DNA of 64,000 bases from contig WJIL01000132.1 in the NCBI GenBank assembly GCA_014730275.1, positions 1 to 64,000 of the forward strand, in the 5' to 3' direction. The translations under genes and the position numbers were made by a program. Within the stretch, counting starts at the first letter, position 1, and every line of letters starts with the position of its first letter. Source of the DNA: Candidatus Lokiarchaeota archaeon (GTDB taxonomy: Archaea > Asgardarchaeota > Thorarchaeia > Thorarchaeales > Thorarchaeaceae). The notes under the pieces were generated by a model. The model saw only the letters and a list, made by a program, of their open reading frames with translations. It was not told where the DNA came from and did no database searches. Positions 42,816-43,361 of the stretch are shown piece after piece.

Positions 42816-42893
42816 GGGGCCGTAGTCTAGTCTGGATAAGGCACCAGCCTCCGGAGCTGGGCTCCCCCGGTTCAAATCCGGGCGGTCCCGCCA
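42816..42893 (+). tRNA. tRNA-Arg (anticodon CCG), CCA encoded
   Basis: The cloverleaf folds fully. The acceptor stem is GGGGCCG with CGGTCCC (one G-T pair), the D-stem GTCT/AGGC with D-loop AGTCTGGATA, the anticodon stem CCAGC/GCTGG with loop CTCCGGA (anticodon CCG, reading CGG), a 5-nt variable loop and T-stem CCCGG/CCGGG. G73 is followed by an encoded CCA. No intron is present. It serves as the internal comparison for the second tRNA-Arg at 43252. Confidence 0.96.
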
Positions 42894-43170: not shown

Positions 43171-43222
43171 TTACCTTTTCCTCCTGCCACTTACTGATTT
43201 TATTCATTCGCCAGCGAAGGGT

Positions 43223-43230
43223 CTATAAGA
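43223..43230 (+). promoter_or_regulatory. TATA box of tRNA-Arg(GCG)
   Basis: CTATAAGA is centred 26 nt before the first tRNA base, which supports this locus as an expressed tRNA despite its unusual D-arm. Confidence 0.55.
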
Positions 43231-43251: not shown

Positions 43252-43361
43252 GGGGCCGTAGTCTAGCCTGGGCTTTCAGAGGACAATCTTCTGGAAGAGG
43301 TACATAAGGCACCAGCCTGCGGAGTTGGTAATCCCCGGTTCGAATCCGGGCGGTCCCGCCA
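43252..43361 (+). tRNA. tRNA-Arg (anticodon GCG) with 32-nt insertion in the D-loop, CCA encoded
   Basis: The ends and arms match the tRNA-Arg(CCG) at 42816: acceptor GGGGCCG/CGGTCCC, D-stem GTCT/AGGC, anticodon stem CCAGC/GTTGG with loop CTGCGGA (anticodon GCG, reading CGC and CGT), T-arm CCCGG/CCGGG, G73 and CCA. Between G71 and A304 (in coordinates, 43272-43303) there is an extra 32 nt in the D-loop. The likely exons are 43252-43271 and 43304-43361. The insert folds as an 11-bp hairpin. A non-canonical archaeal intron is the best explanation; an unspliced extended D-arm is the alternative. Confidence 0.88.
43272..43303 (+). other. Putative non-canonical tRNA intron (D-loop)
   Basis: The boundaries are set by comparison with the neighbouring tRNA-Arg(CCG), whose D-loop AGTCTGGATA corresponds to AGCCTGG plus ATA here. 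Bases 43273-43283 pair with 43287-43297 (11 bp, two G-T pairs, loop CAA). By eye I could not draw a canonical bulge-helix-bulge motif across both junctions, so exact splice sites are uncertain by a few bases. Confidence 0.6.

Follow-up and report, generated by a model that had tools for sequence, protein, structure and literature searches.

Probable bulge-helix-bulge intron at position 19/20 in the D-loop of a Thorarchaeota tRNA-Arg(GCG)

tRNA introns bounded by bulge-helix-bulge (BHB) motifs are already known from the D-loop (PMC6379350, PMC4090602), and PMC11291895 reports that non-canonical tRNA introns are abundant in Asgard archaea. In Thermoproteales, introns have been reported to transpose among tRNA genes (work of Fujishima et al. 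2010, summarized in PMC4090602). Introns with a relaxed BHB are efficiently removed by two types of endonuclease, one of which is the (alpha-beta)2 enzyme (PMC6379350). A literature search that omitted most subscription journals found no description specific to Thorarchaeota. Here we describe a tRNA-Arg(GCG) gene whose D-loop carries an additional 32 nucleotides. We conclude, with a probability of about 95%, that they constitute an archaeal tRNA intron of the BHB type, located at position 19/20 of the sole tRNA-Arg(GCG) gene detected in the genome.

The gene resides at 43252-43361 on the forward strand of the window, by which we mean the whole 64,000-nucleotide stretch of DNA that was analysed. 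It encodes a complete tRNA-Arg with anticodon GCG, G73 and CCA, and comparison with the nearby tRNA-Arg(CCG) gene reveals the 32 extra bases in its D-loop. Its parts are, in order, GGGGCCG TA GUCU AGCCUGG (32 nt) AUA AGGC A CCAGC CUGCGGA GUUGG UAAUC CCCGG UUCGAAU CCGGG CGGUCCC G CCA. A sequence-only reading of this DNA had placed the insert, within an otherwise intact gene, at exactly the coordinates listed in the table. It was also correct about the 11-bp insert hairpin with a CAA loop, which is also predicted when the 110-nt RNA is folded at minimum energy, about the upstream TATA box, where we find a TATA-like element, and about the uninterrupted sister gene.

Features of the tRNA-Arg(GCG) locus (window positions)
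Feature	Coordinates	Strand	Evidence and remarks
TATA-like promoter element TCTATAAG	43222..43229	+	sequence; ~25 nt upstream of tRNA-Arg(GCG); kept in same-genus relative G001
5' exon, positions 1-19	43252..43271	+	acceptor 5' strand, U8, A9, D-stem 5' strand GUCU, D-loop AGCCUGG
Central BHB helix, 5' strand GCCU (exon)	43266..43269	+	fold, BHB search, covariation
5' splice-site bulge GG^G; predicted cut after 43271	43270..43272	+	BHB search; boundary fixed by empty-site comparison
Probable 32-nt intron, D-loop, between G19 and A20	43272..43303	+	sequence, BHB search, comparison with relatives
Intron hairpin, 11 bp (CUUUCAGAGGA / UCUUCUGGAAG), CAA loop	43273..43297	+	fold, alignment
Central BHB helix, 3' strand AGGU (intron)	43298..43301	+	fold, BHB search, covariation
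3' splice-site bulge AC^A; predicted cut after 43303	43302..43304	+	BHB search
3' exon, positions 20-73 and encoded CCA (43359-43361); anticodon GCG	43304..43361	+	sequence
Sister gene tRNA-Arg(CCG), uninterrupted	42816..42893	+	ARAGORN, Rfam tRNA model

The junctions of the insert form a strict 3-4-3 BHB, in which GCCU of the D-loop pairs with AGGU of the intron between 3-nt bulges GGG and ACA. The intron hairpin continues this stack on the inner side, and the D-stem lies on the outer side. A home-made BHB search ranked the GCCU/AGGU motif above every other placement in the gene, and the minimum-energy structure contains this pairing too. This search returns several candidate registers for some other tRNAs, and those reported are the ones that restore a standard D-loop. 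When the insert was shuffled, this central helix with at least 8 inner pairs arose in 2 of 200,000 trials. Cuts between the second and third bases of both bulges, as predicted from the canonical rule and from exon homology, would release a 32-nt intron and leave AGCCUGG^AUAAGGC, matching the sister gene (AGUCUGGAUAAGGC). The earlier statement that there is no clear bulge-helix-bulge motif is therefore wrong, given this structure search of both junctions, whereas its suggestion of an archaeal intron at a position other than 37/38 was right. Because the intron lies at 19/20 in the D-loop rather than at the canonical 37/38, it falls into the non-canonical BHB subclass (PMC4090602, PMC6379350).

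Sequence, folding and covariation together show that G15-C16-C17-U17a of the precursor pairs with AGGU near the 3' end of the intron. With this pairing, two bulges of 3 nt each, G18-G19^G and A-C^A, are flanked by the 11-bp intron hairpin and the D-stem. An (alpha-beta)2 endonuclease would cut both bulges, and RtcB would then join G19 to A20. The product would be a normal 75-nt tRNA body plus CCA, reading CGC and CGU.

The genome encodes two proteins of the tRNA_int_endo family and an RtcB ligase. The alpha subunit keeps the Tyr/His/Lys residues, and its best PDB match is the catalytic subunit of A. pernix (3p1z, E 3.6e-53), while the beta subunit has Ala aligned to the catalytic His. This combination of catalytic alpha and structural beta genes suggests an (alpha-beta)2 heterotetramer. 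A segment of the alpha subunit, GYFGQPVGIRKPKSPDF, aligns to the "Crenarchaea-specific loop" (CSL) of the A. pernix enzyme, with counterparts of Lys44 and Pro45 and a basic residue at position 46. The lysine, the proline and the basic residue of the CSL are reported to be important for cleavage (PMC6379350, PMC12397907), and the predicted CSL of the alpha subunit, with its lysine, is a feature associated with broad specificity. We also observe a CSL in catalytic alpha subunits sampled from more than 20 Asgard families (L001:1201-1782 in this genome, and L175-L199). The lysine is kept throughout this sample and a K-P-K/R core in most of it, a few subunits having other residues after the lysine. 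The beta subunits of this genome and of three others lack the loop. PMC12397907 argues that the CSL is convergent with loops of ARMAN and of eukaryotes, and does not mention Asgard archaea. A CSL common to Asgard catalytic subunits bears on the question of convergence versus inheritance of the specificity-broadening loops of Crenarchaea and eukaryotes.

We compared the gene with its counterparts in the window's family, comprising 47 genomes. Without the insert, the gene reads as a standard tRNA equal to intronless orthologues, with all 75 nt identical to the GCG genes of six relatives. Among the tabulated Arg genes, those for GCG have no intron in most family members. Introns at exactly the 19/20 site occur in the GCG, TCG, CCG, CCT and TCT isoacceptors of Thorarchaeota, and these inserts vary in sequence and in length (27-34 nt). 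With the register fixed by exon homology, 70 of 72 central-helix positions are paired among 18 distinct introns of GCG, TCG, CCG and CCT genes. Pairing is complete in 16 of these genes, and the other two carry one mismatch each. When the partner was slid along the sequence, at most 39 of the 72 positions paired and no gene did so fully, and none of 20,000 permutations reached 70. The combinations include GCCU/AGGU, GUCU/AGGC, GCAU/AUGC, GUAU/AUAC, GCCG/CGGC, GCCA/UGGC and GCUU/AAGC. Seven introns of 32 nt align without gaps; their central helix is 100% paired and has a covariation score of 0.441, compared with a shuffled mean of 0.252 (0 of 500 shuffles reach it). RNAalifold, unprompted, recovered the central helix and the 5' bulge. 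Unlike this covarying helix between exon and intron, pairs at the hairpin tip are often broken across introns. Introns of Arg(TCT) at the 19/20 site fit less well, with 47 of 56 positions paired and 5 of 14 introns paired fully. In six Arg(TCT) introns, the 5' strand is GCCC and three of the four central positions are paired, a possible relaxed BHB.

These comparisons bear on an alternative raised by the sequence-only reading, namely that the insert stays in the mature tRNA as an extension of its D-arm. The hairpin is indeed stable, and with the insert in place the other three arms (acceptor, anticodon and T) still fold. However, the insert varies among relatives and is missing from most of them, some with identical exons, and covariation preserves the central helix between exon and intron, which cutting requires, rather than the hairpin tip. 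The contact between the D-loop and the T-loop of tRNA involves G18-G19, and the location of these bases in a bulge beside the hairpin is hard to reconcile with it. The canonical BHB, its covariation across species and the precise empty sites in relatives thus disfavor a retained insert, which we regard as improbable.

The insert leads standard tRNA finders astray: ARAGORN misplaces the start of the gene at 43281, and the unspliced gene scores 21.8 bits with the Rfam tRNA model, whose cut-off is 29 bits, versus 55.5 bits for the identical exons without the insert, taken from a relative. Common finders miss or mis-start such genes, and therefore the tRNA sets of Asgard archaea are likely under-annotated. 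Such poor scores might also be expected of a pseudogene disrupted by a random insertion, but no second tRNA-Arg(GCG) gene was found in this draft genome (151 contigs), where the tRNA inventory is a partial one combining Rfam hits with a home-made finder run on 18 stretches. The codons read by this sole GCG gene are used: CGU and CGC make up 1.4% of codons in long ORFs of the window (237 of 16,411). Moreover, the exons are free of substitutions when compared with six relatives, a relative of the same genus keeps both exons and intron, and the BHB of the insert covaries across genera. A pseudogene is therefore very improbable, and a spliced gene remains the preferred reading.

An exact-match pattern detected at least one such intron in 22 of the 47 family genomes, and matched in 6 of 181 other Asgard genomes, mostly off the 19/20 register. 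Matches in public records are mostly from Candidatus Thorarchaeota, and several coincide with family members. We do not claim homology outside Thorarchaeota, as hits in Acidilobaceae, Desulfurococcales, Diapherotrites, and Loki-, Hel- and Sifarchaeota mostly misfit the 19/20 register. Two of these hits (L155 and L172) resemble a normal tRNA without an intron that has been fused to a false start further upstream. Three other Thorarchaeota loci (L119, L120 and L122) are tRNA-Arg(CCT)-like genes whose anticodon region is apparently interrupted by an intron, and L120 also has a D-loop insertion.

The gene, its intron and flanks of ~3 kb align in another genome of the same genus, G001. Although the assembly studied here is a draft, this alignment and the same-site Arg introns in nearly half of the family (22/47) make an assembly or binning artefact exceedingly improbable. 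Between the two genomes, differences in the GCG gene are confined to the intron (5 of 32 bases). The present genome also has a tRNA-Arg(TCG) gene (contig C117, L036:13691-13797, minus strand) in which an intron of 32 nt occupies this D-loop site and matches that of the GCG gene at 27 of 32 positions. In G001, the syntenic TCG gene has no intron and presents a precise empty site; its exons are identical and its flanks 86-89% identical. Because the three introns (GCG of both genomes and TCG of this one) are mutually identical at 27 of 32 positions, the data fit transfer into the TCG gene in one lineage just as well as loss from it in the other. Gene conversion of the whole gene was rejected as the origin of the TCG intron, since the TCG exons match the intronless TCG gene of G001 and differ from those of the GCG gene; no more than a short tract spanning the intron could have moved. 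Position 19/20 of Arg tRNAs in Thorarchaeota could be a recurrent landing site for BHB introns that move between isoacceptors, in this genus between GCG and TCG near the split of the two species. Such movement might be made possible by an Asgard endonuclease bearing the "Crenarchaea-specific loop", which would then be a feature common to Asgard archaea. We offer this proposal tentatively, at somewhat short of even odds.

The genome contains at least five further D-loop insertions of this type. Together with the non-canonical Asgard introns reported in PMC11291895, they make a D-loop case less unusual than the earlier reading had supposed. Insertions in tRNA-Asp(GTC), Pro(GGG), Pro(TGG) and Pro(CGG) genes (L037, 9366; L033, 12709; L042, 3937; and L048, 7525, respectively, all on the minus strand) lie elsewhere in the D-loop, and for each of them a 4-bp central helix is possible. 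A possible tRNA-Glu(CTC) at L034:9737-9843 (forward strand) has an insertion near positions 9/10, and L044:7311-7410 (forward strand) is an odd tRNA-like gene of 100 nt. Several degenerate tRNA-like matches were also seen, L029, L030 and L031 among them.

The closest described systems are the archaeal BHB introns at positions other than 37/38, best known from Thermoproteota (PMC4090602, PMC6379350; tRNAscan-SE 2.0, PMC8450103). Like them, the intron described here has a 3-nt bulge, a 4-bp helix and a 3-nt bulge at the exon-intron junctions, is short, bears a hairpin, and lies in the D-loop of an organism whose predicted endonuclease is of a type tolerating non-canonical sites. Unlike them, it has an Asgard (Thorarchaeota) host. 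Its site is 19/20, whereas the positions in PMC4090602 include 20/21 and 22/23, although variable D-loop numbering can shift these by one. Atabeyarchaeia and Freyarchaeia, as described in passages of PMC11291895, are likewise Asgard hosts with abundant introns, often at non-canonical positions. They are other Asgard lineages, and those passages contain no cross-species covariation, empty-site comparison or Thorarchaeota Arg set. As in the intron transposition of Thermoproteales described in PMC4090602, similar introns occupy the same site in different isoacceptors of one genome (Arg GCG and TCG, 27/32); unlike there, a single clear pair is seen, which loss in the sister species would explain equally well. 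The tRNA-Arg(GCG) intron is an unusually well-supported new case of the known non-canonical BHB class. It would extend well-supported non-canonical tRNA splicing to Thorarchaeota, where pairs of genes with and without the predicted intron mark its boundaries exactly.
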